From Eucommia ulmoides (lineage: Eukaryota > Streptophyta > Magnoliopsida > Garryales > Eucommiaceae), in NCBI GenBank assembly GCA_016647705.1, contig CM028328.1, forward strand, positions 10,906,614-10,970,613: 64,000 bases of DNA, written 5' to 3'. Positions 20,033 to 64,000 of this stretch are shown here, piece after piece. Made by a program: the position numbers and the translations under genes. Under the pieces are notes generated by a model. It saw only the letters and a program-made list of their open reading frames with translations. It was not told the origin of the DNA and made no database searches. Each line of letters opens with the position of its first letter. Within the stretch, counting starts at the first letter, position 1.

Positions 20033-20044
20033 GATTGACAATTT

Positions 20045-22276: not shown

Positions 22277-22792
22277 ATAAATAAATTTTTTGATACGCTT
22301 GGGGTTGTGAACCTTGGGTATACGCCCACACCCCCAAACCCGGGGATCACATCTCCGGGTAAGATTACTTTGGTAAATAAATTTAAAGTAAGTCCTTTTT
22401 TTTTTTTTTTTTTTAAATATATTAGAAGTGTAAACAACTCCGCTCATCACATGTAACAAGCTCACCGAATGAGACAAGTCAATGTCTTTTGGGTCTATAG
22501 GTTTCTATGAAATTTCCATGGGTTCACACAAAATAGTCAATCTGAATCTTTCAAAGGGGCCTACTTGAAAAACTACAGGGTCATAATTAAAAGTTCCTAA
22601 AAATATTTTTAAATAAAAAAGAAACTCTTTTATTCATTTATTTTTGGGTAATTTTTTTTTAGTTCTCTATAGGTAGGTTATAGAGGAATCAGACTCCCTG
22701 ACATGATGTATTTAGTTTTCACACTCTGTTAACATTTATTTACGATTATATCATTTTGTCCTATACAACCAAACAAAAATGTGTAACAGGGC

Positions 22793-22882
22793 GTTGACAT
22801 TAACATTAACGTGAAATTGTTCAAACAATGGACATTGTCTATATTAAAATATTACAATTGAATTTCATGTTAACGTTATTAG

Positions 22883-22942
<60 letters not shown>

Positions 22943-23500
22943 TACATTAACTCATCGTCTTCATCTGTTTTGTGTGCGTTAACGTTAACTCATTTTCAGC
23001 AATATATCCTGTCTATATATTTATTTTATTTTATTATTTTTTTTTTAAATTTGATTAAATCTTGTTTATGTTACAAAACTACAATTTGAATTTCACGTTA
23101 ACGATAACGTATTTTTTTTTTTTTTTTTTTTTTTTTGTGTATTCCACGTTACCGCATATTTTCTCATCTGTTTTGTAAATTAACGTTAACGCATTTTTAA
23201 CTATTAGTCTGTGAGTTTTAACGTTAATGTATTTTGTTTTTTGGGGTTCTGTGCGTTAACGTATTTTGCTTAAATATTTACGTTAACGTCCTGCTGCATA
23301 TATTTGTCTTGTGCGCATTAACGTTAACTACCATATGTGGTATTTTGTTTTTTTTTTAGCAGAATGTGTGTTTGAGTTGGATTTGCATTAACATTAATGC
23401 ATTTTTTTTGGGTTCTCTTCTTTGTTAAAGTTAACCCATTTCATGTTGTTTAAAAAAACATGTGTGAATAAAATCACGCACACACTAATGTTAACGTAAA
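22793..23500. repeat. Array of palindromic TTAACGTTAA-type words
   Basis: At least ten copies or near copies of TTAACGTTAA, several in the longer context GTGCGTTAACGTTAACKCATTTT. Examples are at 22974-22990, 23179-23192, 23214-23228, 23251-23262, 23279-23290 and 23316-23328. Spacing is irregular (30-110 bp) and T-rich sequence lies between. It lies to one side of the captured gene fragment. Confidence 0.75.
22888..22938. repeat. (TA)n microsatellite
   Basis: A plain TA run of about 25 units within the repeat array. Confidence 0.9.
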
Positions 23501-23660
23501 AAAATGAACACTCCCTCTACCTCCACCACCATTCATATCCCCACCATCATCACCGTCGATACCATCTCCGATGATAACAGAAATGCAAGCCAAACATACC
23601 AACTGACGATGACGGAGTGAGTGGTTCTGGCGTTGATGCCGACGACAGTTTTTACTCGTC

Positions 23661-23786
23661 GGAAAGGATCGAGTTCACATTGTTGTCTCCGAAGAACACG
23701 ACTGGGTTTTTGTCGGGATCTATGACGGATTCAATGGTACAGATGCGCTGAATTTTCTTCTATCAAATTTGTACTCCGCCTGTTCA
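23661..23786 (+). pseudogene. PP2C phosphatase fragment (POLTERGEIST-like), captured
   Basis: The frame encodes [23 protein letters not shown] and FLLSNLYSA in order. This is the first metal-binding block of plant PP2C phosphatases; the Asp and Gly of YDGFNG are the conserved manganese/magnesium site. The wording is closest to the POLTERGEIST/PLL subfamily. A frame change then leads to a stop at 23787, although VHRE-like residues continue in the next frame. The rest of the roughly 600-residue-plus enzyme is absent. It lies inside an insertion, so it is most likely a transduplicated piece of a host gene. Confidence 0.75.
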
Positions 23787-25290
23787 TAGAGAGAGATGGG
23801 TTGCAAGAACTCATAGTGCAACGACGTGAGCGGTGTCGAATCCACCTAAAAACAAACCAGAGAAAAACCCATTTTATCAAATCGGAAAAAAGAAGATAGA
23901 GAGAGAGAGCATACCTAGATAAAAGCAATCCTATGGAACCCATTTGTCCCTTTTGATATTCTCGATATGGAAACTCCCCTACTTCTCGAGAACACACAAC
24001 AATGGGCTATCGCTATCGATCAAAGCAACCTATTCAAACTCGAATTGCAGTAATTTGAGCAATGGCTTTCATGATTCACCCACGAAAATTGAAACCCAGT
24101 TGAAGATTGCAGCTCTAGAAAGAGCGAATCATTCAGACGCCCCTTATAGTGAGTGCGCATCTGGAGTTGCGTTAATGGATAGCGAGCATACCTAGATAAA
24201 ACAAATCATTAAAATCAAGCCTAACGAGTGGGCTGAGAAGTAGAAATGAAATCAAATTTGAATTAAACGAAAATCTCAATTGATTTCGATCAGCCTAAAT
24301 CTGGATCTGGATGGGCAGTTACAGGTCTAAGACAAGAAATCTTACCTTGTCCAAGAGAGAGTGAGAACGAGATCGAGGACGATGGCAATGCACGATGGTG
24401 ATAGTGGAGGGGTGGTCGGCGATGGAGATCGATTCGGCGACGATGGCAGTCAAGGATATCGACGATGGCGATGGCAACAATGGATGAGTGGTCGGCGATG
24501 CTGAAGGAGTAGTATGGCTCCAATTGTTGACGGCTCTCACCTAGGGCTCGCAATCTCGCCGCTGGTTTAAATCCATGTTCCCTTCTTACCCTCGCCGTTC
24601 ATCTTCTCCTCCTCCCCCATCACCACCGGCACCCGTTTTTCCCACCGATTGTTTTTGTATAGAATAAGGATGAAGATAATCTTTGCGCCGATCTTCATTT
24701 CTTCTAGAGAGAGAGAAGAGAGAGAATGAGATATGACATTCACGTATCTTTAGAAAGAGAGAGGTTTCTCTCACTAAGAGAAAGAGTGTGAACTAGGGTT
24801 TAGAGAGAGAGAATGAGGATTGTGGAATGAGTGATCGGAGAGGGAGAGGGAGAGAGAGAGAGAAAGAGAGCATGTTAACAATTAACGTAAATGAGAGAGA
24901 GAGGATTTTTTTTTTCAGGGGTATATGTATTTTTTTATGAATCTTTTTTATCTACTAAGAATTAAATACTTAATTAGTTGTACTGTGTGGTCTGAATTAT
25001 GAGTGAACTTTTCAAAAGTTTTTTTTATACATTTTCTCTCTAATAGAGATCAAATAATAAGAACCTCTTTATTTTTTTATTTTTTTTTATCTAGATTAAG
25101 AAGTGTCTTTTTCATTTTATATTATATAATTAGTATATAACTCGTGACTAAAAAAACTAATTTTAATTTAATATATTAATCATAAATATTTTCTAGTTAG
25201 CTTAATGAAAAGAATTTTTCTAGAGCTCGTTATTTAGTTTCTAAACAAAATCTAAATCAATAATTGGAAATGTCTCTACAACCAACCAAT

Positions 25291-45982: not shown

Positions 45983-46860
45983 GGTTGAGTTGAAAATTTT
46001 ATTTTCTTTTGGGAATAGAATTGCATTTGATAACGATATTATTCTAGAATTGATTTTAGAACCAACCTTAGAATTGATTCAATCAAACTCCCAAATTCAA
46101 CCAAAATCCCCAAATCAAGAACCAACCCTAGAATTGATTTAACCAAATCGTTAAATTCAGACAAAATTCCCAAATCAAGAACAAACTCTAGAATTGACTT
46201 CATGAAATTTAGCCAAATTCCCCAAAATCAGCTAAAATCCTCAAAATCAAGAACGAACCCTATACAAAAATCAAGAACTAAACCCTAAATTGATTTGAGT
46301 AATGAAATCGAAATCGAAAATCAAAATCGATTTTGTGATCGATTTCAGTAATGAAATCGAAATTGAAATCAAAACCCTAAACAAAAATCAAGAACCATAC
46401 CCTAAATCGAAATCGAAACATGTTCGATTTAAACTTGCTATTTCTTTTGTTCTTGCAAGCGATTTCGATCTGTTCGAAGTTGAAATTGATCTGTTCCAAT
46501 TCAGCAATGAAATGTTTGAAGATGAAGGCAATTTCGATTTGTTCGAAGACGATGGCTAGGATGACGAAGACGATGGCGAGGAGGAGGTGGACGGCGAACA
46601 AGAAGGAGTTCGGCGAAGATGAAGAAGACGATAGAAATATATTTAAAGAAATATTTTTTTTTCATTAATTGTTAAGTAAATTTCAATTTTTAAAAAATAC
46701 GATTTGCATCATATTTTTTTAAAACTATGTTCATAATATTAATATTCTGTAACGCAACTTACGAAATTACAAATGGATTAATGAATGATTTTTAAATATC
46801 ATTAAAATCAATCACTAATCATTTTTTCGAAAAATCAATCACTAATCCATATTAACACTT
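45983..46860. repeat. Degenerate minisatellite-like AT-rich block
   Basis: CCCTAGAATTGATT and CCCAAATCAAGAAC words alternate at about 45-60 bp spacing over 46040-46270. GAAATCGAAATCGAAA-type words follow at 46300-46420. Open frames across it are repeat artefacts. Confidence 0.55.
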
Positions 46861-46991
46861 CTTAAGTGAGTATGAATTGGAGTCTTCAATAACAAAAAAG
46901 ATAAGAGAAACCTGATACTTACAGTACCGGGGAAAAATTATTTATTGATCTCCTAGGGAGATTTCTAAACACTGAGGGAGAAAAAAAAAAA

Positions 46992-47224
46992 GGGTTAATT
47001 ACACTTTATCTCGCTATAATTTGACCAATTTATATTTTATCTTCTTATAATTTGAAAATTGTCACTTACCCTCTTTGTGGTTAGATTTTCAAACCACTAA
47101 CCCCCCTAATGTAGGAGGATAAGTGCACCAAATATTTGACCATCGGAAGGTAAGTGACGATTTTCAAACTTTAGGAAAATAAGTACAAATTGGCCAACCT
47201 ATAGGGGTAAAGTGTAATTAACCC
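46992..47224. mobile_element. MITE of 233 bp, second copy of the GGGTTAATTACAC family
   Basis: It begins GGGTTAATTACACTTTATC and ends GTGTAATTAACCC. Its interior matches 34700-34930. The flanks are A-rich on both sides, so a target duplication cannot be confirmed. Confidence 0.78.
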
Positions 47225-47279
47225 AAAAAATTGAAACAAATTATTAAAAATATATTTACTTTTGGAAAAAAAAAAAAAA

Positions 47280-48020
47280 TCCCGAGTAAAATATAGGGAG
47301 AATGGGTGGAAGATCCTCTATTTAATTTTTAATTGATCAAAAGTCCTACTTGAAAAATTTTGATTTAGTCTCATTTGTTTTAAAAAGAAATAAATTTTGA
47401 TCATATGATAGTCACGCGCCAGTTATATATAACTATTTTGTGTATAATATTACTGTATTAGTTACAACCAGTTATATATAACTACTTTGTGTATAATATT
47501 ACTGTATTAGTTACAGATAACTAATTTTATTTTATTTATTTATTTATTTATATTTATTTTCAGTTATATTTTCTAATAATATGCAATTTTTTAATTACAT
47601 GTTCTGATATGTAATTAAAAAATTTGATATTTTTCAGTTACATGTTTAAAAAATATGTAAATTTTTAGTTACATGTCTACTAAAAAGTTTGATACTTTTT
47701 CAGTTACGTCACAAAATATTATACATATATATGTAATTATAACATGTAACTAATACTAAATAAGTACATGTAACTAAAAATAGCTAAATATATGTGAAAA
47801 ATGTCCATTATGAAATTGTAACTAACATTAATTACATGGAACAGAATTCACTATAAAAACTGAATGTACTCACTGAAAAGTTCCCTACAATCTCTGCAAT
47901 ATCCCTATAATTCCTGTAATGCGGGATTAAAACACAAGTGAACTCTAATTTAAAGGATTAAATCAAAATTTAATAACACAAAGGACTTTTCATCGGTTAA
48001 ATTAAAAAAAAAAAAAAAAA
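47280..48020. mobile_element. Non-autonomous element related to that at 25803-26398
   Basis: It shares CTACAATCTCTGCAAT, GGGATTAAAAC-type and AGGACTTTT words and the TGTAACTAAT-rich interior in the same order. The ends lie in poly(A)-rich sequence and were not fixed. It has no coding region. Confidence 0.45.
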
Positions 48021-48065
48021 AGACTTTTCACATTTTTCCTAAAATATATATAAAGAATATGAGAA

Positions 48066-48662
48066 TCACACGATGGTGCAAGAGGAGTGGGGATAGTTGA
48101 CGTCCACACAATAAGGGGGTACCCCACCATAATAAGAAGGGTACGGTGCCTGTGCCCAAATCACAGCCTCGGGCTTCTTCTCCTCTTTCTTTACCGGTCC
48201 GAAGCTGACAAGCTCCGCTTGGGGAATCTTCTTCCGCAGCATGTTGGTGAGCTCGGCGGCGTCAATATTTTCTCCGGTGACCTCTATCTGGTCCTTGTCA
48301 TCCCCTTGTACAGCAACTGACTCCACCCCTACAAAGCATGTATGAGTAACTGGGTACAAAATATTAATTACCCATTTATCATATTTATTTTTTCTTACCA
48401 CCAGCACTGACAGCAATCTTCATGGCCTTGCATTTGCACTTCTGGCTAGTCATGGAAATCTTGATCACTACCTTTTGCTGAAAAAACAACAATTTAATTA
48501 ACCTTAAAGAAACACTCCTAACAGCATGTTTGTTTAGCGGTAAAAAAATTGAATTCCGAGAGAATAAAATTAAATTTTGAATGCACTCATTATTCGATCC
48601 TTATTACTTCCAATCAAACATGGCGTAATATGTTTATGTAAGATCAAACATACCTTCGACAT
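48066..48662 (-). CDS. Small HMA-domain protein, HIPP/Pik-HMA type, with CaaX tail
   Basis: Three exons on the minus strand. Exon 1 is 48662-48654 (Met-Ser-Lys), exon 2 is 48477-48399 and exon 3 is 48328-48066. All introns have GT and AG ends, and the joined frame gives 116 residues. The protein starts QKVVIKISM (first beta strand of the ferredoxin-like HMA fold). GGVESVAVQG and DQIEVTGENIDAAELTNMLR follow, then a Lys/Glu linker, a Tyr/Pro-rich segment and the C-terminal Cys-Thr-Ile-Val. The metal-binding MxCxxC is not kept; KCKCKAM stands there, as in plant small HMA proteins related to the Pik integrated domain. The last four residues form a CaaX prenylation signal, suggesting membrane attachment. 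A TATA box lies about 180 bp upstream of the ATG. The decayed paralogue is at 20972-21485. Confidence 0.85.
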
Positions 48663-48842
48663 TGCTTAATTAATTTGGACCTCTTGATGGTGTGATGGGA
48701 CTAGAACACGTAAATATGTAAGGCCTTTTAGAGAGAGAGAGACCAAAAATTTTGGGTCTTCTGGGGAGAAAACAATATTTTACGTTTCAGAAGGGTCTGT
48801 TTGTGATTGTGTATGAATGTTTTTCGCTCGCCATGGTCCTCC

Positions 48843-48850
48843 TATTTATA
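48843..48850 (-). promoter_or_regulatory. TATA box of the HMA gene
   Basis: TATAAATA on the minus strand. A start site about 30 bp downstream (near 48812) would give a 5' leader of about 150 bp before the ATG at 48662. The leader includes a GA run, common in plant leaders. Confidence 0.68.
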
Positions 48851-49028
48851 GCTCGAGTTGAGTTACCTGAGTTGGTGATAAATTTACATTTGGTCCCTAA
48901 ATGTTAAGAACAGTTTCAATTTGGTCCCTTAAAAATATATTTATTCTAAGTCCCTGAATTTTGTAATTTTTTTGATGTTGATCTTTTACTTTTCCATTTT
49001 TCCGTTACTTTTATTTCATTATTACTAG

Positions 49029-49732
49029 TGTTTGTGTTGGAAATTAGACCAACTAGCAGTATGGTTTAGTCACTATTTGTGTGGAGAGCTGCAACTGACT
49101 TGAAGATGACTTTCGTCCTTGTTCAAGTCTTTAATCTGGGCTGGATAGGCGTTGTTTGGCCTGAGCTCCGACTTGTCACTTGTACACAGGACCGGCCAAG
49201 GTGCTCCCCGGCATGTCCCCTCTTACGTGAGAGTAAGAGATCGGAGGAATTGAGAACAAGTTGTTTGGAGAGATAAAGTTATTATCTCGACCTGTAGGCG
49301 TATTCTTGCATATGGAAATGTGTTGGTGAAATCTTCTATTTATAAGTAAGGGGATGATTATTATTATGGGAAATTAGAGTCTTAAGCTCGGTTATCCGCT
49401 AATCAGTCAAGCGCATGAGGAACACGATGGATTAGAGTTATGGGTCTGGACCTTGGACCCTTTGTTCGTTGATGGAGAAGCCTATGGGCCTAGCCTGCTA
49501 AGGGTGATAGGCCAGCCCAGGTACCGAGGTGAAGGCCATGCTATATGCACTGACCTGATCCTTGGGAGAGGTTTTGAGGAGATTCTGGCCTGGAGACTCG
49601 ATGGCCCTTCACTTCTGTCGACCCGAAAAACTCACCGGGCTCTCAAGGCCGTTTGATGAGGTGGCGCTGGTGACGTGACTATCTTAATCCAGGTGGCGAA
49701 CATGTAGAGGTGGTTGGATTTTACACATATCA
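49029..49732 (+). mobile_element. Solo LTR of 704 bp, unknown LTR family
   Basis: It begins TGTTTGTGTTGG and ends ACACATATCA. The 5-bp sequence ACTAG is repeated exactly on both sides (49024-49028 and 49733-49737). A TATA-like TATTTATAAG lies at about 49339. It is richer in GC than its neighbours. No internal retroelement sequence accompanies it. The orientation is inferred from the TATA-like site; the superfamily is not known. Confidence 0.7.
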
Positions 49733-49737
49733 ACTAG

Positions 49738-50070
49738 TTTTAGACTTACGTATTGATCGGACTTGAAAAAAATTATAATAATATTTAAATATGAATACAT
49801 ATGTATGATTTAGTCATTTTGATAGTAATGTCAAGAAACGGATGCATAAATTTTAGTGAATAATGTCGTTTTATGTATAAATATGGGAAATATATATACT
49901 ATTAAAAATTACCTAAATAATCCTAAAAATAAAATAATATTTCTACAACTGCTTTTTTATAAATTAATTTTTACTCATATACAATACAATAACAAACAAA
50001 TATAAATTAAGCTTAATTTTATTAATTTTTAATTTTTAATTTATCTTTATTATCATTTATCATGATCATT
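49738..50070. other. AT-rich spacer in duplication copy 2
   Basis: No feature is recognised. Homology with copy 1 resumes after this. Confidence 0.4.
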
Positions 50071-50526
50071 ATTATTTGTACGCTCATCGCGTGTAACAAG
50101 CTCATCGAATAAGTCAAGTCAACGTCTTTAGGCTTAAAAGGGTTCTTTGAAATTTCCATGGAGGCACGTAAACTCGTCATCTAAATTTTTCAAAGGGGCC
50201 TACTTGAAAACTATAGGGTCATAATTAAAAATTATTTAAAATATTTTAAAATAAAAAAAAAAAAAAAAAAAAAATTCTTTTATTCATTTATTTTGTATCT
50301 AAATTGAGAAGTGTCTTTTTCATTTTATATTATATAATTAGTATATAACTTGTGACTAAAAATAATAATTTTAATTTAATATATTAATTATAAATATTTT
50401 ATATTTAGTTTAATACATTAATCATAAATATTTTATTGTTAGTTCAAATACAATAATCATGAAAATAATTTTTTTGAGAGGTCGTTATTTAGTTTCCGAA
50501 CAAAATCTAAATCAACAATTAGAAAT

Positions 50527-51099
50527 AGAGATTTTAATTTCATAGTCCCTAAGAGATTTGCATCTTATAAAATGAACCTTTAACAACTTAAATAAATTTT
50601 GGAGACCACACAAAAACTTAGCAAATGGTCCATGACTTATACCCTTTCATTTGGTTCTATTTACGCATGCTTGCCACCGGATTCTCTGCAATTCACAGAG
50701 AAGAGTATATGGGAAGTTACAGTTCACACTATTACTCTCTTGCTCAAGAAAACAGCCGATTCGTCGTTATTTCTTCGTCCAACATCGATAACAAATAAAC
50801 CAAATTATTTGAAAAAAAAAAAATCTCCTTCTAGTGATGTATTTTTCAAATTTCTTGGTTTCGATTTCAGTGTTTACGAACATTCATCATATAAGTTTTC
50901 TACCGCCCGTTTGGTAATCGACAACGTTTTTTCTAAAATATCGAACACGCTTACCAATAATAAATTGGCCCCTACCATATAGGGCTTCCGTATTTCTAGA
51001 TTATTGCTCACTGCGAAGACACACTTGCATTTCAGACCCAGAGTATTCGACTGAAACCCTAAATTAGGGTTTGTAAACGGCGCACTACCGTCTAAAAAA
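50527..51099. other. Left end region and probable leader of the MULE ULP-like gene
   Basis: AT-rich with a poly(A) tract at 50810-50822. Near 51057-51072 is AACCCTAAATTAGGGTT, an inverted repeat close to the start codon at 51100. A long open frame at 50599-50982 shows no known domain and is not called. Confidence 0.4.
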
Positions 51100-51199
51100 A
51101 TGACGAAGAAGCTTAAAACGTTGTCGTCTCTATCGCGAAAGCGAAAGAATCCCGAATATTTGCAAGGTCATTGCGGTTTTGGTCCAACGAGTATGTTGA

Positions 51200-51960
51200 T
51201 TTGGACTATGAATGTTCATAAATATTGTGAATGTCTATGATTTGGCTGAGGTTGTATATTTATATATACTCCAATAATTATGTTCTATTCAGTATAATAT
51301 AACGCCCCACGTGTTTTATGCTTTTCGGCAGTTGTTTTTTAATGTAGAATGTTCTTGTGGGTCACCATTTTTACTTTTGATAATGTTATGATAAGTGTGC
51401 ATTTTTTGTTTGTGGCTAGTGTGTGTGTGAATGTTCTTACATTTTACAAAGCGTGCTCCGATTTTTTGTGACTGTTCTTACATGAAACTTACCTGTTTGT
51501 TGATGTATTGTCTTGTGTATGTTCAATTGATTGTGAATATTCGTGCGTCTGTGTGAATGTCAAAATGTTGGCATGCATGTGTTTCCATTGTACCCTTGTA
51601 TTTTTTCTTTATGCTATGTTGAAGGTCCGATTGAATGTTTGGGATCCATGTTTCCGTGAGTTGTTTTGACAAATGTTTACTTCCGGGTTTTGTTACTCTT
51701 TGTGAATGATCTGATAAGAGTGCCTATTGTGATTGTGTGCTGGTTTTTGACAATGCCATTAGATTGTGAATATGTACAAATTGGGTTGTGAATGTCCATT
51801 ATTGTTCCGATTTGTGAATGTTCTTACACGAACTTAACCTGCTGATGTAGTTTGTTGGTGTAAATGTTCAATCGATTATGAATGTTCTTAGTCTCGTGAA
51901 TGTCCATGTTTGCTATTTGTTTACTTCTTGTGCATTGTTTATGAATGTTTACTTTAGTGC
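51200..51960 (+). repeat. Array of GTGAATGTTC words in the first intron of the ULP-like gene
   Basis: At least twelve copies or near copies in one orientation. Examples are at 51207-51217, 51227-51235, 51347-51354, 51427-51440, 51468-51480, 51549-51560, 51786-51795, 51814-51827, 51860-51869, 51877-51890 and 51896-51905. The longer form GTGAATGTTCTTAC occurs twice exactly. Two stretches of about 90 bp (51468-51560 and 51814-51905) are diverged direct repeats of each other. Confidence 0.78.
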
Positions 51961-51984
51961 ATGCACATACGCTGACATTCCCTC

Positions 51985-52950
51985 TTTCAAAAAAATGGTT
52001 TATAGCATTGCGGATTGTGAAGCCGAATACTGAAAATAAATCTCAATCTCAGAGCAGACAGTTTTCGTACCGATGTAATCTTAAACAAGCAGTTTCTCTT
52101 CTTAAAGATTGCAAACTCACCTCGAAGCACAAGGAATTGTTGTCGAAAACACCCTTTGCGAAAACATTTGAGGCATTATACGACAAAAAATTGTCATTGG
52201 AGAATGTTCAAAAGAATGATAGCTTGATAGAGTGAGTGGTTTTGAGTTACAATCTATCCAGGGGTACGTTCAGGTTAGGCGAGAAGAGTGTTAGTTTGAC
52301 ACGGCTCGATATCCAGGTGATATTCGGGCTACCTTTGGGGGATGAGCTCGTCGTTCAAAATCGATACACGTGGGCCAACTCTGCATTTCTCAACAACTAA
52401 CGTATCAACCCCGCGAGTTCAGTGTCAGGTTCCTCAAATCATTGATTGAACAACGGGTGTTGCGAACAAGTGAAGATAACGTACAAGATACTATGAAACT
52501 CCTCTGTTTGCACCTATTGACGACATGTTTCTTTACAACCACTGGTCAACAAGTCCCTAAGTGGTTGGTGCGCTATATTGAGAACATTGATGATATGTGT
52601 ACCTACAATTGGCCACAAGCGATCTTCATGGATTTGGAAACTAATTTGAAGAAGTCATACACATAACCAAGGTCGGTTATGGGGTGTGTCATTGCGCTGC
52701 AGGTACTTATTTGTTTTTAATATTCTGTGTCAGTCATATTGAATGTTTACCTTTTTTTTTTCTTTTTTTTTTTTTTTTTTTTTTATATTGGATTTTTCTT
52801 CAATTTGACAATACTGGTTGTGCAAACACACCAACTTGATTAAACCAATTGATGGGCAAGATGTTTGCGTGTCGTGGATGTTGAGATGGTACCTGACCAC
52901 ATATTCAAACGCAATTGGATTGACGTCGTTGACTAACTTGCCGAATCATC
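51985..52950 (+). pseudogene. N-terminal plant-mobile/DUF1985-like domain of the ULP-like gene
   Basis: The frame reads FEALYDKKLSLENVQKND, then GTFRLGEKSVSLTRLDIQVI and FGLPLGDE, then LCLHLLTTCFFTT and IDDMCTYNWPQAIFMDL, then MGCVIALQ before a GT. After an intron (from about 52704) comes HTNLIKPIDGQDVCVSWML and RWYLTT. The LTxxDVxxxxGLPxG-type signature, the DxxxxYNWxxxxxxxL segment and the WYxxxT end are those of N-terminal domains on plant transposon-borne ULP proteins. Stops at 52232 and 52397 break it. Whether it should be called DUF1985 or PMD needs a profile search. Confidence 0.62.
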
Positions 52951-53052
52951 AGGTGACTTTTTTGCGTTGATAAAACGTGTTCGCACATTTATGTTGATGG
53001 GTTGAAATGTGAATGTTAACCTAAATATAATCAATGTCCAAAATACGTTCAG

Positions 53053-54117
53053 GTGAAGGGGTGCATGACAGAGGAAACGTTGACTGAGATTCGATTAGGG
53101 ATCGCTGGGCGCATTGAAAATGATGAAGACCCCGTTGTCAAAGAAACACCAGTGGACGTGATTCCAAAAGCGGACAAGGGGAAGGCGTCAATGATCGAAG
53201 ATGACGTTTATGTTGGTGCAATTATTGATAATCTTGTAAGCACATACATCAACCCCGTCTTCACCCAACCAAGGAAAAGCATCGCACTATTAATGTTCGA
53301 TTTGGGTGTTGATTTTACCCAAGCCGAAAGTACTGTGCACACCAACAAACACATGACATTGTGGTCGATGACGTTTACCGTGCACTGGACGAAATGTAGA
53401 AAGACTACTACATGAGGAAGTTAGAGGCTGAAGAATGTAATGAAGCCTTGCTGAAAGTTTTGGCTTATGTAACGGTGAAGAACATAAACCAACAAACTGA
53501 TATTGAATGGCTAGCCGCGTTACTTGCAAGTCAAAAAGTAAAATATGATAATGATGTGGGTGCTCTCAATGCAAGGATAGTAGCTCTTGAAAATGAGAGG
53601 GAGACAATACTTATCGAGATGAGCATTCACGAAATCATACAAAAACATAGGGATCAACTGGTGAATGCCGAACTTGAGGAGCTAAAAAAGAGATGCACAA
53701 ATCTCGAACTGGAGGTAAATATGGGGATCAGATCGTGAAAGAAGCGAAGGAGTCGCAGAAGGCTGGTCGTAGAAGCTACATCTCGATAATCAAGGAGCTT
53801 GCAGATAAAAACAAGGAATTAGAGGATCGAATCTGCAGGTGCGTGTGTGCTAGAAAAGATGTGTTGATTTTGCTTCTGCTGCCCATGGGCGAGCTCCGGT
53901 CGGTAAACGTTCTGTACCATCGTCGGCGACTTCCAAATGCAAATTATCTTTTACTGCAACTGAAAAACCATCACGTTCCCCACGTTGTGAAAAGGTGGAC
54001 CTTATAGATGCAAAACCGATAACAATGATTATGCTTGATGAGGACAACGTGATAGATATGACTCCAACACCACGTTTGACCTGTCCCCCACAACCAACTG
54101 ATAACACGTCGAAAGTT
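53053..54117 (+). pseudogene. Acidic and coiled-coil middle region of the ULP-like gene
   Basis: An acidic linker (ENDEDPVVKETPVDVIP) is followed by a long heptad-rich stretch: DVGALNARIVALENERETIL, then ELEELKKRCTNLELEV, then IIKELADKNKELEDRI. Three frame changes are needed to read it, near 53355, 53400 and 53715. The end runs into the left flank of the solo LTR (GGTTC), and the frame continues after 56767. Confidence 0.6.
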
Positions 54118-54432
54118 GGTTCTGTAAGACCCCGACTAGTGATCTACAGATAATTGAAGTCGTGTTTTAAAATATTTCAAAAATAACAGGGTGAATGGTG
54201 TAATTTATAATTTAATTTAAATTTGAGGGCCTAATTAGAAATTTTAAAAATGTAAAGTGTAAACTTTTGGACTAAAATGATTTCAAATTCTTAAGTAGGG
54301 GTGAAATTATAATTTAATAAAATTGTAAATGTTGGATTTCGATTCAAATGGAGAATTAAAGAAATTAAGGGAGAAAAGTGTAAATTAATTTTTTTTTTGT
54401 TTTGTTCTTCTTCTTTCAACCATAGGATATTT

Positions 54433-54436
<4 letters not shown>

Positions 54437-54478
<42 letters not shown>
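54437..54478. repeat. (AT)n microsatellite in the solo LTR
   Basis: About 20 AT units at the LTR position that also holds TA runs in the full Tekay-like element. Confidence 0.93.
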
Positions 54479-54479
<1 letters not shown>

Positions 54480-55929
54480 CAGTGTGTTTGTGTGTGTTTT
54501 TCAGTGTCGGGTCTTTGTGTGCGATCGACCCTTGGATGTGTCGTCGGTGGAGTGGGTGTCGCCGGCCGGAGTGTTAGAGAGAGAGAGAAAGTAGGTATCG
54601 ATTGTGGGTGTGTGTTCCGTTCGGCATCGTGGGTGTTCCGTCTTCGTGGATGTGTGGCGTGATCGGAGCAAGGTCGGTCGGTGGAGAGTCCCAGAGCAGT
54701 AGTAGAAAACGAAGAGAGAGAGAGAGGATCGACAGTAGTCTGGTGATGCGAGGGTGGTGATCGTTCGGCGGTGGGGTTACCGTGTTTGTCGTGGGTGTGT
54801 TGTGCGTGCCGTGTGTGTGTTCGAATCGTTGGCAGTGAAGATCGGCGAGAGGAGTGAGTATTGGCCGGTGTTGAGGTAGTGCGGCGGGAGTCCAAAGAAA
54901 TAGAAACAGCAAAGCAGAGCAGAGAAGGTAGATGGTCGTCGTCGCGACAGTGCGATCCGTCGCCTCGGCAGTGCAAGGTCAATAAGGTATGAACATGAGC
55001 TGTCGTGCGTTCACCGCGGCGGTAGAAATTCAGGAAATATGATTGGGAGCTATTGGTCGTGCGCTGTGGCGATGAAGGATCAGCGAAACATTCGCCGCGG
55101 CGGTAGGGTTTTTGCTGCAGCGGTGAACCGTCAGTGTTTCTGGATCAAAAACTAATGAAATTTTCAGGAGATCGACAACCGTTTCGGAGCGGATAATATT
55201 TCTCGTTAATGCTTATGATTACTAAATTAATCTTCTAGTCTTAAAATATTAAAATGGCGATAATGAAAGTTGAGACCATTAATATAAATAAAGTTTAAAT
55301 AAATTTTTAACGAAGCGATTTTAAACGAATAGAAATAATTCGTAATAAAATATGGGAAATGAGAAATTAAGGAGATTAGGATTTCATGGCGTGATTATTT
55401 TGTTTTTATACAAAAATATTAATTTAGGCCCTGTCACCGTTAGGTTCGCAGGCACCAGAGTTTGGATAAAGGATAGTCGGTCAAAGTTTACGAAAGCGGA
55501 TATCGAGGTGAATATACTGCCCTTCTTGCCAAACTATTTTCATATAAATATGATGAGATATGTGTTTATTTAACTATACGAATTTTATAAATGATATGGA
55601 TTAAGCAGGATTTGATTGAGATGGTAAAACTGGATTTTTGGAAGATTTCAATGGTTTTTAAAAAGGAGATTGAAAATGAGTTTTCGTTAGATTTGGTGGT
55701 TTTAAAAGGGAGTGGAAAATATGGGGTTTTTCTAAAAATATGAGTGAAAGAATAGTTTTGTTGAAATTAGATGGTTTTCCAATGAAAATGGAAAAAATAT
55801 GATTTTTGGATATAAAAGACGGTTTTGAGATAAAGAGGTAGATGTGGTGATTTAACAATATTAATTTGACAAAAATTTATTGAGTTATGATTTGATGATG
55901 TTATATTTGATTTGCCGATATTATATTAT

Positions 55930-56015
55930 TTATCCGCTGAGTGCGGAGTGAGATTATCCGCTGAGTGCAGAGTGATGAGACATTTATACTGCGCAGTAAT
56001 TATTTGCTAAGTACA
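55930..56015 (+). repeat. Hairpin units with TGAGT loops in the solo LTR
   Basis: ATCCGCTGAGTGCGGAGTGA and variants, three in tandem. The arms CCGC/GCGG equal those of the TTCG-loop units of the Tekay-like LTRs, but the loop is TGAGT. TACTGCGCAGTAATTAT lies between units in all three LTRs. Confidence 0.68.
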
Positions 56016-56107
56016 GAGTGATGGGTGTTCGTAGTGAAGGCATATCCTACGGATGGTACGGTACCGTTGCAACTCCCGATCGTGAGGTTAAAAAGATCAC
56101 TAGAGCT

Positions 56108-56224
56108 AGCCAGCGTGTGTGTTTGAGATGTGTGTTTGAGGTGTGTACTTGAGATGTGTGTTTGAGGTGTGTGCTTGAGGTGTATGTTTGAAATGTGTGC
56201 TTGAGATGTATGTTTGAGATGTGG
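56108..56224 (+). repeat. Minisatellite, about 16-bp unit GTGTGTTTGAGATGTG
   Basis: Seven imperfect direct units. A shorter version (three to four units) is at 8480-8523 in the Tekay-like 5' LTR. Confidence 0.8.
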
Positions 56225-56767
56225 TGTTTACGTATCTTGGCTAATTTGATATTTATTATCATGGTGATTAGTATGATTTTTATACTAGTTGGATTTGAAT
56301 GGAACGTAATCATATCACTTTATTTTTTGTGCTTTTAAAAATGGAGATTTTACGAGCTAGGTGGTGTTTATAAACTTACGCTTGATCGATTTAGATGTGG
56401 TCGAATGAGTTCTTATTATTAAAAATATTTTTACTAAAAAAATAGTACACTCGCAGGTGAAGCAGTAGGAGTCGGTCCCCTACTGACGCTAGGTAGAGTT
56501 GTGCGATGGAATCAATTTGATTTTTTTCTGAGATGAGTCGTCAGAGGTGAACTAGTGGGGGGTTCACGAGTATTTCTAATTTTGTTATTATTATTTTTGG
56601 GAATGGATGTGTTCCCCTATGAGAGATAGTTGTACATCCTGTATGTATAATATTATATAGATGTATGCATAATGAAAACTGTTAGATGATGGCATGTTTG
56701 GTGACGTCGTGTTGTCGTCATGTCGGTCCCGGGATGGTGAGTGTCTGGGTTGGGTCGTGACAGGTTC

Positions 56768-57470
56768 AATGTGTGAAGGGTAGGGTGAGGAATGAAAGTA
56801 AAATAAGTAGCGATTATGTGTATCTTAAGGAAAATGGGCAAAGGGAAAATTGTGGAAGAAAAAGACTCTGTCGATGTCGATCAGCTACCCAAGAAGGATT
56901 ATGAAGACACCATAAAAATGTCCATCCGGAAACGATCAAAAGTAGCAATGATGCTTGACGATTGGGATTGGGAGTTATTGCAGTTGATATATACTGAGGA
57001 GGGGGGTCGGGTGTGTGCTGAAAACTTTTATACTTGTTACCTTATTTTTTCTGATAACATTTTTGAGCTGATTGCTTGATTCTCGTTTTTGGCAGTGCAT
57101 TTGTGTGGGGGTGGTGAGGGTCCAACGTCAACATTCACATGTAGTGATGCGATATGTTTAATTCAGGATAAGCAAGTTGTTGATAATGTATGCAGCTTAT
57201 CCGATGTTGTTGTTTGTAGGACGTTCATTAAAATGATGATCCCCTTAATTGTGTTTGGACGATATTATGTGTGAATGTTAATGTTCTCGTTTTTCAATTT
57301 TTCAATTCATAGGTTATTGATTCATTTAGCGAATTCTTGGAATTACGGATGCGGACAATCAACGCCATACGCAATACAAATGGGGTGGGGACGCTGGACT
57401 AGTCAAAGTTCGTTATCGCGAGTGTGTGGTAAGCATCAATTGTCTTAATTTGTCTACTACTAGTGACATC
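56768..57470 (+). pseudogene. ULP-like gene, part between the solo LTR and the ULP domain
   Basis: Continues the coding frame interrupted at 54122, with KGKIVEEKDSVDVDQLPKKD and KMSIRKRSKVAMMLDDWDWE, an acidic-then-basic stretch. A GT-ended intron probably starts near 57013. Later exons near 57110-57230 and 57313-57400 (SFSEFLELRMRTINAI) follow the ULP gene order. A TAG at about 57399 breaks the frame. Confidence 0.55.
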
Positions 57471-58204
57471 GAGGCTAACATATGATTTATGCCACACAGA
57501 CTGTTCTAAAGAAAAAACAATAGAAACTCTTGGATTATTTACACGCAACGATCCAAGCTGCGTTTATCAACAACTGCCGGTACCTATTGTTCCTCGTAAA
57601 TTCAGATGGACGTCATGCGTACACAAATCATTGGACGTTATTAGTACTTGATATAAAGAAAAAAAATTGGACATTCTATAACTCCCTTTTGCCTAGCCCG
57701 ATGTCTGACCACTACTTCAAGGATGTCCGATGGGTGGTATGTAATATACGGTGCTTAATTTTCTCATACACATTTGTTTGCTAAAAAACACAAAAATAAT
57801 GTTGAAAAAATTCTTATTGTGAATGTTCTATAGAAAATTGTCGTTGAGTTGTTCCTCAACAAACAAATTAACCATGAATGGGGGGATGCTTCCATTAAAT
57901 AATGTCTTGGAACGCCACAGCAAAAAGGATCGTAAGTGTGTATAACTACTTTTTATGTACCAACCATTTTTACGTAAATCTATAAATCAAAATTTCTCTT
58001 TCCGTTCACAAGATCGATTATGGTATGTACATGATATATATAATGCTCCAGTATGCCGAGAACAAACCTGTTGCAAAAAAATTAAAAGCGGAAGAGGTTA
58101 AAAATATCCGTAAGATAGTCGTCCATTACTTGTTGAACGATTGGAAGCGAACTTGGTCCCTTTCAACTGCCAAACTGATAAAGAAGCATGATGGGTCTAT
58201 ATAG
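57470..58204 (+). pseudogene. ULP1-like (C48) domain with catalytic Cys replaced
   Basis: The His of the catalytic set is seen in NHWTLLVLDIKKK (His codon 57629-57631). FYNSL has Asn (57680-57682) where Asp or Asn is expected. PQQKGS gives the oxyanion Gln (57918-57920). An intron follows (donor after 57928, acceptor AG at 58011-58012). The next block reads DYGMYMIYIM where ULPs have Asp-Cys-Gly, so the nucleophile Cys is Tyr (codon 58019-58021). The splice as drawn is one base out of frame. A C-terminal helix and Lys-rich end lead to a stop at 58202-58204. It could not cut SUMO; any remaining role would be binding. Confidence 0.72.
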
Positions 58205-58782
58205 GTGATTGAACAATCAATAGCTTGTTTTGGATTTGGTTATTTGTAATTAACATAGATTTGGATTTTGGGTTCTGTGTGCACATTCACAAGAACACTA
58301 CCATATAACACATCTTATCACCAAAAATCATATCTGAGTTAGTGAACGTTCATGTGCAAACTGAACATTCAGAATGCACATAGAACAAAATAGATGTTTT
58401 GCATATCTGAATGTTCATATATGGTTGTGTTGCATAAGTTCATGTTTGTGGCATGAAAAAATCTGTAATTCAAAAATGAACATTCAAGAAAATGTATATA
58501 GAACAAACAAATGTTTGAATATCTGAAATGTTCATGTATGGTTGTGTTGCATAAGTTTATGCTTGTAGGCATGAAAAATGCAAAAAACGTAAAAAAAACA
58601 CATGATCACAAAAGAATTTTGCAAAAAAGAAAGGAGAGATTAGATATATACCCATCTTAACAAAAACAAAATATAAGCATCCATACCCACAAAACAAAAA
58701 TAAAAAATAAAAAAAATTGTTCGAACTTAAAACATATGCTTTCGTAGATTGATGTATCAAAAAATAGACCTAGGTCAAATAA
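58205..58782. other. Non-coding tail region of the MULE with GAATGTTC words
   Basis: GAACATTC or GAATGTTC-type words occur near 58270, 58345, 58362, 58389, 58477 and 58528 in both orientations. Two stretches of about 90 bp (58377-58445 and 58490-58560) are direct repeats with the shared end ATGGTTGTGTTGCATAAGTT. No coding region is seen. Confidence 0.6.
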
Positions 58783-59690
58783 TCACTCCGCCATGTTGAC
58801 GGACAATTCGCTCGGCGTTGGCGAAGCAAAACCAGGGCCAAGGTAGCTCCTCAATCGCTCAACCTCTTCCTCTAGGTTAGCAACACGTCTATGAAGGTAC
58901 TCCACTTCCACCCTCATTTTGTCAGTCTCATCGCATTTGCTGTGGTACCTCCAGCATGCCTCGCCTATCTTCCATTGCATTGATCTTGCTAACTCCAGTA
59001 GTCTCTTGGAATCCTTGTCTCACCTATTGACTTGTGTATCAAACGCATTGTTCGTATTATTTTGCTAGTTGACAGTCTGGTTGTTCCCCTCGTTATCCAT
59101 TGCCTAACACACAAAGTCAACCTATATGGGTTTGTCAGTCCAAAACATTACGAAAACAGTGTGTGAGATTCAATTGCACACTAAAAAAATCTGAAAAAAT
59201 ATTCATAAACTGGAATTTATAAGGGGAAGGGATGAACATTCATACAGGGGGAAAAAAATGTTCCCCCCCTAGTTTTCCCGTATTCAAACACACATATTCA
59301 AAACCATCGAAACCCTGGATAGAAAAAATGAGACGTACTGACCATGTGTTTCGATAAACGAAACATGTATCTGTTCGGAAAAAACAAAATACTACATACT
59401 AAAATCGTGCGGACGAGCAAACGTAGATCTTAAAATAGGGCTAAAAATAACTTAAAACCACCAACTAACAGAAACATCTTACAGATGTGTTACGACAGTC
59501 TGGTGGCAAAAATCCAAAACCCATATGTGTGCTAACACATACGAATTGTAGATTAAGAATTGTATATAGACTTACCAATATCTCACTGTGTTCTCGCTGG
59601 TAGAACTTCAAACATTACTTTATGAGGAATGTCAGGTAACTCAAAATCAATCTCTCTATGGGCATGGATTGGAATTCAGATCGTAGTATA
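58783..59690 (-). pseudogene. Small coiled-coil gene of the MULE (third gene)
   Basis: The ORF starts at 59100 and ends at 58783, 105 residues. MDNEGNNQTVN is followed by a stop (TAG) and Asn-rich residues, then a second stop (TGA). The remaining 65 residues are open: MQWKIGEACWRYHSKC, then a coiled coil (VEYLHRRVANLEEEVERLRS) and a short tail. A TATA box (minus strand 59694-59686), a leader exon ending at 59576 with GT, and an AG just before the ATG at about 59104 give a gene model with a 5'-UTR intron. Both stops are one C-to-T change from Gln or Arg/Trp. I know no family for it. In position it could match the small gene (vanB-type) of three-gene VANDAL elements, but that is a guess. Confidence 0.5.
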
Positions 59691-59694
59691 TATA
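59686..59694 (-). promoter_or_regulatory. TATA box of the small MULE gene
   Basis: CTATATATAC on the minus strand, about 110 bp before the splice donor at 59575 of the proposed leader exon. Confidence 0.5.
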
Positions 59695-59699
59695 GATCT

Positions 59700-60489
59700 A
59701 TTCCCTTTGGCCTCTGTACCTGGATGGACGTCTGGGGTGTGGCGTTCCATTGTCCAAAGCACGAAACCGATGGCGTGGGGTGGCACTTCACATAGAGTCA
59801 TGAATGTTCATTCTGATTCCTTTCTTATCGATCCACGAAACAATAATTGACTCATGTCACCAAACCTAAAATTTGTACGAAAATATTGGGAAGTGGATAA
59901 ATGTTAATTTTTTTTAAGATCCAATAATGAGAAGGGTGAGAAACATATGAGTTAGTTTTTTTGTACATTCATATTTGAGTGACATCTAGTGAAATTTTGT
60001 GTTGAAAAAAATAAATTGAAATCTAATATTTGTACTTATTTGATGCAAAGTAATTGTGAGGGGACGTAAGTACAACAATGTGGTGTTGATGGGTTGCGTG
60101 AATATTCATGATGACTTTCACCAAAAACATATATCTGTACGAAAAAATTGGGTGCATGTTTATGATGGCTTCCTTTTTCTTTTGCTAATGTCAACTGTAC
60201 TTATTCTGCTTGGTTCTGTGGGAATGGAACCCCTTCAAGATAATTGATGCTATTGTATGGCCAAAACATCCCACTCCACAGAATACATAAGAAATTGCTG
60301 AAGAAATTTTTTCGTGCACTGTATAAAAGTAATCTGTGTAACGAAAAATGAAAGTGAAATTAACAGTATGAAAATTTATATAAAGTATCTAAGTAGCAAT
60401 AAAACGAATAAAAAAAAAAGATGCATTGTCTCGGAAAAATGCTCCAAATGTCTATAAAATTAATAAATGAAACAAAATAAATTGAGATG
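59700..60489. other. Non-coding region between the two minus-strand MULE genes
   Basis: GAATGTTC-type words at 59802-59811 and GAATATTCATGATG at 60099. Otherwise AT-rich. The downstream part would hold the transposase 3' end. I see no other gene. Confidence 0.5.
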
Positions 60490-63400
60490 CTAAATTGGGT
60501 CTGTGCACATCTTCCTGTTGTGAAGCCCAATTTTTTTGCAACGGCCGTAATGAATTTCAACGATCTTGCCCTTGGACGGTATACGCTTCTTCCTGGGACG
60601 TCCAGGTTGCTTTTTGGTAATCGGTGGGAGGATCACAACTTTATCTTCTTTCCACACCGACCTCTCAAGTGTCAGGACGCTGAAAATTCTTTCCACATAT
60701 GTTTGTTTGTAGTAGTCTACTAAGAAGTAAACATCAATAAATAAATGCATGTTCTGGCCGCTCTTCAAAATAGTCGAATATGCATGTGCGCATGGAAAGT
60801 CGTTGACTTGCTAGTTCAAACATGTGCATGACATGTTTTTCAAGTCAACCAACACGGACAGATGTGATAGAACTTCGTAAACATTATTCCCATATTCAAT
60901 GACCATCCAAGTTCATCCTAAACTAATATTTTGTGCAATCATTTCGTCGCGGCACAACAAAATAACTCCCATCTCGTTAATGAATCAATGCGTCTGGCGG
61001 ACATTTGTGCTATTAACTTACATCTGATTTTGTCAATCATCGTTATAACTGTGAGATGTCTCAGATCACAAATCCATGCATTGAATGATTCCGTAAGGTT
61101 TGATGACATTTCGCCGTACCGTTACCTTGAAAGAACATGTTACAAAATCTATCCAGCGAGACGTCGTGTAATAAATTTTTAACTCGACCTCTACTCTCGG
61201 CCTTCAGGGCATCAAGCATTTCATTATATTTGTTAAATGTCGTCGCATATGCCATTTTTGTAAATTTGAAGACCAAGCTCTCTTTGAATCTTTGCTTCAT
61301 TCCGGTTAACTTGTCCTTCAGGTTATTCTTCAAGTGATTGAGGCAAAATGCATGGAAACTGTTTGGGAACATTTTTCCCATACCGTCGATGATCCCGTTG
61401 TGTCTATCTAATATGAATGTTAACACATGTGCATGCGAAACAATTATGGATAAATTGGTTAAGAATCACCGTCAATTGTCGTCGTTCTTCGCATCTACGA
61501 TGGCAAACACAATCGGGAATATTCTTGTGAATACCAAAAAATCGTCAAAGTTATGTATTAGACTGTCACCAAAAAATGCAGAAAATAAACTAAATATATT
61601 TTACATTGATTTATCATTTTAATTACCATTTGCTCCGTCTTTTGCATTCGCTACCAATAGACATCCCTTATAACGACCACATAAGAAAGTCCCATCCAGA
61701 AAAATCATGGGGCGGAAATAGTTGAAACCTTTAATGCTAATGTTAAATGCAATAAAACTTCTCTTAAAATGACCCATTTCTTTGTCATAATCTAGAACAA
61801 AATGACTCCCTGGGTTCGTACGCATACAAGCATCGATGTACCATCAAAGTTGGTCGTATGAAGATTTGTAATCCTTGTATAACTCTTTTTGGGCTTTCTC
61901 AACGCGGTTCCACGCAATATGGTATAGGATGTCAATCCTATAATAATTCTTGAACGTGTGAACGACATCAATGAGGCGAACATCAGGTGTGTTTCTCACC
62001 AAATCAACTAAGCAAGACTTCACCACATTTGAGTTCATGTTTGTGTTCTAGGTTGACATATAAGCAGCCCCGCATGAGTGTACATTGTTCAACTTCTATA
62101 TGTAGAAAAACCCATTGCTCTCATTCACCCGCACGTGTACTTCCCAATTGCACCCTATTTCTTCCTTTCGTGAACATTCTGTTGTAACTCTCTTTTTATC
62201 GTTTTTCTTCAATTTGAAGGTAAAACCTCCATGAAACAACAAACTTCATAAGAATTTCCCTAAATTCTGGTTCCCTGCCCATAAAAATATGTCCTACCTC
62301 TTTGATGCCTTCATCTCATTGATTCGATAGCAATATTTTTTTGTGACAACGGACAAAAAATCGACAACAAATCATGATCTCTCATTTCGTCTTCTCCGTT
62401 GCCCCCAAAACGTTGAGGGCTCGATTGTCATTATGGGTCCGCTGTCATCCGATCCATACCCGCTGCCACACACTTTGATGTCGACATAGATATATTTGAA
62501 CTTCAAAATTCGAGAAATGCTACAGACAACTTCAAAGTCGGCTTGGGATTACAGTATACACTTGTCGTGTCCAGGGATGGAGTAGTATAGCTCAAATGCG
62601 TCATGCAACAGTATCTCCCACCTCGCTATTATTTTTTGAACCAACGTGTCAAACATGAGATGATCCGCGTGTTTAATTCCGTAAGAATACCCATCAAGCT
62701 TGCACATCAGCACTAGTTCGTATGCATTATCCATTTCGTTTGTTATCTGCCCATTTACAAACTAAGGCTCACAAAAAATAACATAGTAATGTGCGCAAAA
62801 AAATCGATCTATGCTACCATTTAAAATGCAATTTAGAGTTTCTCTGTCTATTTCAAACACAACAATTGACAAGATGATTTTGAAAAACATTCACACCATA
62901 TTAACATGTTAAAAATCCATTTATAAGGAGATGTTTCTTTGTTCATTCCATGCATACCCTTCACATGTTGAACATTCCCTCTGCCCCTGAACATTTCGTA
63001 TTCATATGTTCATCCAGTGAATATTCTCAAATGTAAGCAAAATATAATATTTTTCGGAACATTTTAGTAAATGTTCTCTAAAACGCCTCCCCTCTCCCCC
63101 CCCCCCCCCTAAAATATTCTCATACGCTGTGTATTTTTGTGACTTTGTTTAGATCTCAAAACTAAGGATATGGCAAAACAAAACCTTCTTTGTGAATGTT
63201 ATCAAATGTAATCAAAATATGAGGTTTTTTATAACATGCAGTGAATGTTCTAAAAACTCCCCGGATATTCCCATATGCTATGCATTTATGTGACTTGTAT
63301 ATATCTCGAAACTATGGATATGGAAAAACAAAGCCGAACTGATTTTGCAGATTGAACATCGATTTTTGTTAAAAATATAAATGGGTGAAACTTTGACAAT

Positions 63401-63695
63401 CGAAAAAAAACACAATATACTCACCACACCACACGATATCTTGTTTCCGTTTCAATACATAACCCCGAGCTCGATAGATAAAAAATATCATGACTACAAT
63501 CCAATGTTCCACTTATTCTTTCTGATGGATTCGAAGTTTGTTTTGGTCGTCTTTTCATTTATAAAAAATATGGGTTTTTTTGAAATGAGAAAATATGCCA
63601 TAAATAAGATGTATTAATGAACCTACCTAATTAATCTGTGAATGAGAACTTACCGTAATCGTCTGCTCAACCAACAAAGGGGTATCGACGTCCAT
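60490..63695 (-). pseudogene. MuDR/MULE transposase, full domain set but with stops
   Basis: Order on the minus strand. A candidate first exon MDVDTPLLVEQTIT is at 63695-63654 with GTAAGT. The N-terminal region starts MDNAYELVLMCKLDGYSYG (62734). The MuDR DNA-binding region follows, KKNDKKRVTTECSRKEE, GCNWEVHV and NVHSCG (about 62230-62050). The catalytic core has Asp in IFLDGTFLCGRYKG (codon 61694-61696), a 103-bp intron (61626-61524), then IFPIVFAIVDAKND and Asp in ILDRHNGIIDG (61406-61408), with FHAFCLNHL. A SWIM finger follows (MSCTCLN, FPCAHAYS; about 60835-60785). The C-terminus is LPPITKKQPGRPRKKRIPSK with a degenerate knuckle RCKKIGLHNRKMC. Stops near 62546, 61845, 61470, 61060 and 60815 and one frame change or more make it inactive as read. 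Confidence 0.85.
62870..63380. repeat. GTGAATGTTC/GAACATTCAC words in the transposase first intron region
   Basis: Words occur near 62886 (AACATTCAC), 62969 (GAACATTCC), 62989, 63019, 63073 (GTAAATGTTC), 63192 (GTGAATGTT), 63242 (GTGAATGTTC) and 63353, in both orientations. This is the right-hand counterpart of the 51200-51960 array. If the first transposase exon is right, both arrays lie in first introns. Confidence 0.68.
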
Positions 63696-63859
63696 GCATT
63701 TGGTATTTTCAACGGATCATATTATTAGAATGTTTTATAAAAGGTTGAAATAATAATTTTTATTACATAATGGTTTGATGAGGAAAGAGAATATGCAATT
63801 TGGTCTAAATAATAAAAATCCCTTAGAAATATCTCAACTAACTATCTAATGGTAAAAAA

Positions 63860-63864
<5 letters not shown>

Positions 63865-63896
<32 letters not shown>
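63865..63896. repeat. Poly(T) tract
   Basis: About 32 T in a row, after which the character of the sequence changes (ACACCTCCTCAACTC and ACTCTAACTTTG words). It may mark the edge of another element that continues beyond the window. Confidence 0.85.
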
Positions 63897-63897
<1 letters not shown>

Positions 63898-64000
63898 TAT
63901 ATAGCGGGTTAATACCATTTACACCTCCTCAACTCTTTTGACACTCCACATATACCCTCTAACTTTGAAAGTACCACGGGCATAACTTCACTCGCATTCA

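Follow-up and report, generated by a model that had tools for sequence, protein, structure and literature searches.

We analysed a 64,000-nucleotide stretch of Eucommia ulmoides DNA (the window; assembly GCA_016647705.1, contig CM028328.1, positions 10,906,614 to 10,970,613 of the forward strand). Near its right end lies a Mutator-like element (MULE) with a PMD/DUF1985-like gene that carries a ULP domain, a transposase gene on the opposite strand and a small coiled-coil open reading frame (ORF). One short word, TGAATGTTC, is repeated in this element and sits mostly in its non-coding parts. The arrangement resembles that of MULEs whose own proteins relieve silencing, and it probably once served the same end.

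The element and its genes

The first-pass annotation had drawn the element at 50527..64000. A MULE is indeed present, but its right end lies at 63822 and not at 64000, and the solo long terminal repeat (LTR) found inside it is not part of it. We located the following features.

50528..63822, no strand assigned: whole MULE, 13,295 bp including the later 2,640-bp solo LTR and 5 bp of duplicated target
50519..50527, plus strand: left target site duplication TTAGAAATA, an exact 9-bp direct repeat
63823..63831, plus strand: right target site duplication TTAGAAATA, an exact 9-bp direct repeat
50528..50549, plus strand: left degenerate terminal inverted repeat, 15 of 22 bases equal to the right end
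63801..63822, minus strand: right degenerate terminal inverted repeat, 15 of 22 bases equal to the left end
51101..58204, plus strand: broken gene with PMD/DUF1985-like, coiled-coil and ULP parts (VANC/KIU-like), from frames and Pfam
51168..52004, plus strand: intron 1 of this gene with a motif array, limits by eye from frames
52008..52703, plus strand: PMD/DUF1985-like domain in the main exon, from Pfam on the read-through
54123..56762, plus strand: later solo LTR in the ULP gene, with TG..CA ends and the 5-bp target duplication GGTTC; it lacks the motif
57311..58204, plus strand: ULP (Peptidase_C48) domain in several exons, from Pfam on the read-through
58205..58782, no strand assigned: intergenic motif array, 7 near-matches in 6 places on mixed strands, with a 117-bp tandem repeat
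58783..59100, minus strand: small coiled-coil ORF, possibly a third gene; the open ORF is 58783-59019, 78 aa
60490..62761, minus strand: broken MULE transposase with a SWIM-like C-terminus (CTC..PCAHA by eye), from PF10551 and frames
62801..63640, no strand assigned: region upstream of the transposase with a motif array, 6 near-matches

The insertion is proved by its empty site. The flank is duplicated within the window, and when the flanks of the MULE are joined, their alignment with the paralogue at 25151-25420 runs across the junction; together with TTAGAAATA on both sides, this gives the target site duplication of about 9 bp expected of a MULE. Among 36 exact 9-bp repeat pairs between the zones 48500-51090 and 63300-63990, TTAGAAATA has the best ends. 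Their similarity of 15/22 has P ~0.0008 per random end pair, or ~0.03 after the 36 candidate pairs. Another 9-bp repeat, AATGAACCT (50571/63616), was rejected as the target duplication because the ends at TTAGAAATA are more alike and are backed by the empty site. Outside the MULE, the stretch 63909-64000, from GGGTTAATACCATTTACACC on, resembles by eye the terminal part of a further transposon, truncated where the window stops.

The ULP gene begins with a short exon and an intron 1 of ~837 bp, followed by the PMD/DUF1985-like domain, coiled-coil-like parts and the ULP domain. Reading of the frames revealed in-frame stops, frameshifts and the LTR insertion in this gene, and in-frame stops and frame changes in the transposase gene. 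This copy is dead, and was probably once autonomous.

Pfam profile scores were taken on read-throughs with X at the stops. Among the MULE, PMD, DUF1985 and Peptidase_C48 profiles, only MULE passed its curated cut-off (PF10551, E=1.2e-11, 45.4 bits against 27.6). The expected kinship of the N-terminal domain with PMD/DUF1985 was borne out by profile search, though below the curated cut-offs. PMD (PF10536) gave E=1.3e-7 and 31.6 bits against 34.9, and scored above DUF1985, which gave E=0.0048 on the read-through and 0.0015 on the unmended ORF (17-19 bits against 35.1). Peptidase_C48 gave E=7.6e-4 and 19.8 bits against 20.7. The DUF1985/PMD-like plus ULP gene of the first-pass annotation is present, with PMD ahead of DUF1985 and all three profiles below cut-off. 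By eye, the His-Trp (codons from 57629) and the Asp of the ULP catalytic triad are kept. A Tyr codon stands at 58019, where the catalytic Cys would be expected by eye. The ULP part had a weak PDB match to SENP1 (20 residues, E=0.087), and the PMD/DUF1985 part had a single, uninformative PDB match (E=1.7).

With the ULP gene on the plus strand and the transposase on the minus strand, the ULP gene is antisense to mudrA, as in KI-MULEs and VANC-ULP elements. KI-MULEs have three genes, and the third candidate here is the 78-aa coiled-coil ORF, for which the Pfam scan gave no family above its cut-off.

A word repeated in the non-coding parts of the element

We counted GTGAATGTTC with 0-1 mismatch on both strands. 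The window holds 34 sites, whereas 100 dinucleotide shuffles gave a mean of 6.3 (sd 2.6, largest 13); exact sites numbered 4 against 0.25. By region, 33 sites lie in the element without the LTR, one in bases 1-50527, and none in the last 178 bases or in the 2,640 bp of the solo LTR, which serves as an inner control. In a blind count, TGAATGTTC was the most over-represented 9-mer of the element (12 sites against 0.30 expected, P ~7e-16). It or its sub-words ranked first at lengths 6-9, and TGTGAATGTT ranked first at length 10. A motif density explained by composition, which would have spoken against the reading of the first-pass annotation, appeared neither in the dinucleotide shuffles nor in the blind 9-mer count; the density is far higher. 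In six of eight half-overlapping control windows of equal length, no 9-mer was more significant than P=3.8e-7. The remaining two windows reached 3e-11 and 6e-12, and common to both is a second real array, described below. A two-strand weight matrix for the motif degenerated into a near-palindrome, and the counts do not rely on it. Among 29 sites one mismatch away from the 10-mer, 15 differ by a transition, and in 11 the change is G>A or C>T, which is no more than a slight hint of methylation decay.

The sites form arrays. We compared the core TGAATGTTC (0-1 mismatch, both strands) with 200 shuffles of the same stretch. Intron 1 (51168-52004) holds 14 core sites against 0.76 in shuffles (largest 4), all on the plus strand, or 11 sites if the 10-mer is counted. 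The intergenic stretch 58205-58782 has 7 against 0.49 (largest 3), and the region upstream of the transposase (62801-63640) has 6 against 0.54 (largest 4). Stretch 59101-60480 has 5 against 0.86 (largest 5), and 50528-51100 has one against 0.22 (largest 2). A near-palindromic place counts on both strands among the 7 of the intergenic array and in one of the 5 of 59101-60480.

Enrichment in the element's own non-coding parts, a feature of VANDAL elements, is observed here. All 12 exact 9-mer cores lie in non-coding sequence (5,170 bp) and none in coding sequence (5,512 bp; P=1.6e-4), chiefly in intron 1 of the ULP gene, between the genes and upstream of the transposase. With 0-1 mismatch, the core has 57 places: 36 are in non-coding sequence (5,170 bp), 7 in coding sequence (5,512 bp) and 13 in the leading 50.5 kb; the LTR has none, and one (57129) falls in a gap outside both classes. 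The earlier statement that the words occupy non-coding parts therefore holds for the exact cores, but not for the 7 near-matches in coding stretches. We drew the borders of exons and introns by eye along the reading frames, and the coding and non-coding counts depend on them; these counts and the flank and placement tests used slightly rougher limits (LTR 54126-56763, element 50527-63900) than the final regional counts.

Longer repeats do occur among the sites: a 117-bp tandem repeat of 1.9 copies at 58358-58578 contains several of them, and a 31-nt family has three copies in intron 1. They would fit a neutral by-product, in which a short stretch was multiplied by tandem duplication and then decayed. 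We regard this origin as very improbable. Most ungapped flanks are unrelated, the 46 rows falling into 43 separate units. Over 20+20 nt in the 46 rows their similarity of 0.292 is barely above the random 0.274, with 3 of 1032 pairs above the 99.9% null level where 1 is expected, in an ungapped test that misses repeats shifted by indels. Because the flanks are mostly unrelated, it is the word itself that was kept and not a longer repeat. The word also appears in several separate regions and on both strands, and its exact cores are absent from coding sequence.

The position of the arrays bears on another explanation, that the words are binding sites of the transposase. In Ac and En/Spm, subterminal repeats serve as such sites. 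With inverted repeats as degenerate as these, the transposase may need other recognition sequences, and one array does lie just upstream of its gene. None of the 33 sites, however, is closer than 300 bp to either end, the distances being 350 bp for the first site and 581 bp for the last. Intron 1 contains the densest array, and at least 5 kb separate the intergenic one from both ends. We give this explanation little credence.

The letters of the word suggest host transcription factor sites, above all for heat shock factor, in which case the element would be stress-induced, as the ONSEN retrotransposon is, and not self-anti-silenced. GAATGTTC fits the pattern nGAAnnTTCn. Leaving out the LTR, the element contains GAANNTTC at 22 places against 11 in the first 50.5 kb, a roughly ninefold difference in density, and it also has two three-unit matches (one per arrangement) where the first 50.5 kb has none. 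The two middle bases of a heat shock element are free, but here they are TG/CA in 16 of the 22 and TA in another 4, and neither is found in the first 50.5 kb (0/11). A heat shock array would have at least three alternating GAA/TTC units with free spacers, whereas these spacers are biased and the three-unit matches are only those two. Moreover, the over-represented 9-mers lengthen the motif leftward to TGTGAATGT, and introns and intergenic stretches hold sites too, not promoters only. We therefore consider an origin as heat shock factor sites unlikely.

A second array and the rest of the window

The second array, which surfaced in the control scan, consists of dense GTTAAC-type (RTTAAC) words at 22728-23495, often paired six bases apart. 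GTTAAC occurs 11 times in 855 bp, compared with 0.44 in 500 shuffles (largest 4). The array belongs to one more feature.

~22646..25067, no strand assigned: non-autonomous MULE-like insertion with the RTTAAC array, a cytidine deaminase fragment and the 9-bp repeat TTTATTTTT

This insertion is absent from the paralogous flank, where the matching pieces meet at 50279-50294. Its repeat TTTATTTTT is of low complexity and was picked among several candidates for ends alike at 15/24. The gene fragment is a plus-strand frame at 23923-24195 (PF08211, E=2.8e-8), and the first motif is absent from the insertion. From its sequence it looks like a Pack-MULE that may carry the docking array of another family. 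For the RTTAAC array transposase binding is the stronger rival, since the array lies near one end only.

A different array in a neighbouring MULE-like element that lacks TGAATGTTC is what one would expect if families have diverged motifs, and in this it favours the VANC-like reading. Two MULE-type elements with unrelated arrays, TGAATGTTC and RTTAAC, might have had separate VANC-type readers, so that several private anti-silencing codes existed in this genome, with Pack-MULEs riding on them by retaining the array; we offer this only tentatively and lean against it. If true, an array of its own in a non-autonomous element that captured a gene would tie the spread of Pack-MULEs to anti-silencing in trans. 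Capture of a gene fragment alone is ordinary Pack-MULE behaviour.

The paralogous flank is part of a duplicated segment: 18005-22644 and 25072-25271 match 45238-50526 piecewise at 73-90% identity, and each copy took a different MULE-like insertion. The segment carries a minus-strand gene, heavy-metal-associated-like by eye, at 20996-21451 and 48066-48419; the first copy had no Pfam match. Diverged pieces related to the solo LTR (mostly 68-75% identity) lie at ~6.4-8.9 kb and 14.2-16.5 kb. Copia-type retrotransposon pieces occupy 28602-30833 (gag_pre-integrs E=1.6e-11, RVT_2 E=2.4e-55).

Probable anti-silencing and the known systems

In VANDAL21, tandem repeats with the motif YAGTATTAY occupy intron sequence of VANC21 and VANB21 as well as the region upstream of VANA21 (PMC5735166), and our arrays are placed in the same manner. 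The available parts of that paper also state that VANC21 binds this motif with ensuing loss of methylation, that the motif of VANC6 differs from that of VANC21 and that VANC proteins carry DUF1985. According to the accessible text of a 2026 review (PMC13317346), the VANC genes of some VANDALs contain a Ulp1 domain acquired by transduplication (KIU), and these genes, as the review cites from Sasaki et al. 2022, target specific motifs of VANDALs that carry KIU and bring about their hypomethylation. A VANC-type mechanism is the most likely one here because of this placement and this review.

We think it probable that the element is a dead MULE of the ULP-bearing (Kaonashi / VANC-ULP) kind, and that its intact PMD/DUF1985-like ULP protein bound TGAATGTTC and relieved silencing. 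The protein would dock on this word of ~9 bp, many copies of which lie in the non-coding parts of the element, and relatives of the element presumably hold such arrays too. Once bound, it would remove or block silencing marks and in this way allow expression of the transposase gene. The ULP part might remove SUMO from silencing proteins at the bound site, which is a guess. The VANC-like anti-silencing system put forward in the first-pass annotation is supported by motif density, position and gene set, and on these grounds is the best explanation; that the ULP-gene protein reads the motif, and that binding leads to loss of methylation, we infer by analogy.

The same arrays could be a true anti-silencing target that was read in trans by the protein of a related element, while the element's own ULP gene had another role. 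The ULP gene is broken here, the second element (22646-25067) has an array and no such gene seen in its ORFs, and VANC supplied from a transgene acts on other copies, as the available part of PMC10398659 reports. Against this, the densest array lies within an intron of the PMD/ULP gene itself, just as the VANC21 intron contains motifs (PMC5735166), and we find a reader in trans of this sort quite unlikely.

Several observations weigh against the main reading, relief of silencing by the element's own protein. DUF1985 is far below its curated cut-off, with PMD and Peptidase_C48 just below theirs, and DUF287 was not found in the scanned parts of the ULP gene, part of whose middle was outside the scan. 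Sasaki and colleagues reportedly described in 2022 gains and losses of DUF1985, DUF287 and Ulp1 among eudicot VANC systems, and the importance of the sequence, density and helical periodicity of the motif. We saw no phasing of 9.5-11.5 bp in intron 1 (14 sites), the intergenic array (6), the region upstream of the transposase (6) or the pooled sites (44), in a test with a rough jitter control whose pair filter differs slightly from that of the observed data. The motif resembles a two-unit heat shock element, and the 7 coding near-matches, none exact, are about five times as dense as those of the first 50.5 kb (P=0.002). Most sites also lie outside recognisable tandem repeats, whereas tandem repeats are the form in which VANC target regions are described (PMC10398659, in its available part).

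Nor was a relative found in the collections searched. The ULP-gene read-through had no match at E<=0.001 among the 8000 candidates with most shared words in protein collections of viruses, prokaryotes and metagenomes, and the transposase had no homologue among 2339 candidates from the same collections. Two stretches of viral contigs fitted the transposase pattern and 11 stretches of genome contigs fitted that of the ULP part, with none confirmed in either case. Since the collections cover viruses, prokaryotes and metagenomes, these blanks are uninformative on rarity in plants. A search of the open-licence literature for a VANC21 structure since 2020 listed 10 of 3,553 papers, and the word VANC21 is absent from all 10.

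The element is probably a new example of a known anti-silencing type with its own word, not a new kind, as judged from an open-licence library in which no search by the letters of the motif was made. The first-pass annotation suggested that the element may join the VANC and ULP types; such a union would not be new, since PMC13317346, in its accessible text and citing Sasaki et al. 2022, already describes Ulp1-bearing VANC genes with their own motifs. If the reading by the element's own protein is true, motif and reader would be one more sequence-specific way to undo silencing, with a code that could be read and, given intact relatives, tested directly.

Several groups of angiosperm MULEs with an antisense PMD ORF share with our element a SWIM-type transposase and a 9-bp target duplication (PMC6446971); for those other than VANDAL, the available part of that paper describes no motif arrays or anti-silencing. 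Kaonashi (KIU) MULEs agree in a ULP gene antisense to mudrA and, should the coiled-coil ORF be a gene, in having three genes, as far as the accessible parts of PMC2528002 and PMC13317346 describe them, and motif-specific hypomethylation is a KIU feature in the same part of the review. The accessible parts of these papers do not give the KIU motif, which may equal TGAATGTTC or differ from it. Unlike those MULEs, the copy here is broken and split by a solo LTR. From VANDAL21/Hiun with VANC21 of Arabidopsis, the element differs in its motif (YAGTATTAY there, TGAATGTTC here), in a PMD score above that of DUF1985, in the added ULP domain and in the lack of DUF287 in the parts scanned. Target regions are tandem repeats there and mostly not here. 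The two are alike in being MULEs with degenerate terminal inverted repeats, in the 9-bp target duplications that the available parts of PMC5735166, PMC10398659 and PMC6446971 give for the VANDAL group, and in a short motif repeated in the intron of the VANC or VANC-like gene and upstream of the transposase; the protein may also be of DUF1985 type in both, though here the profile match is below cut-off.

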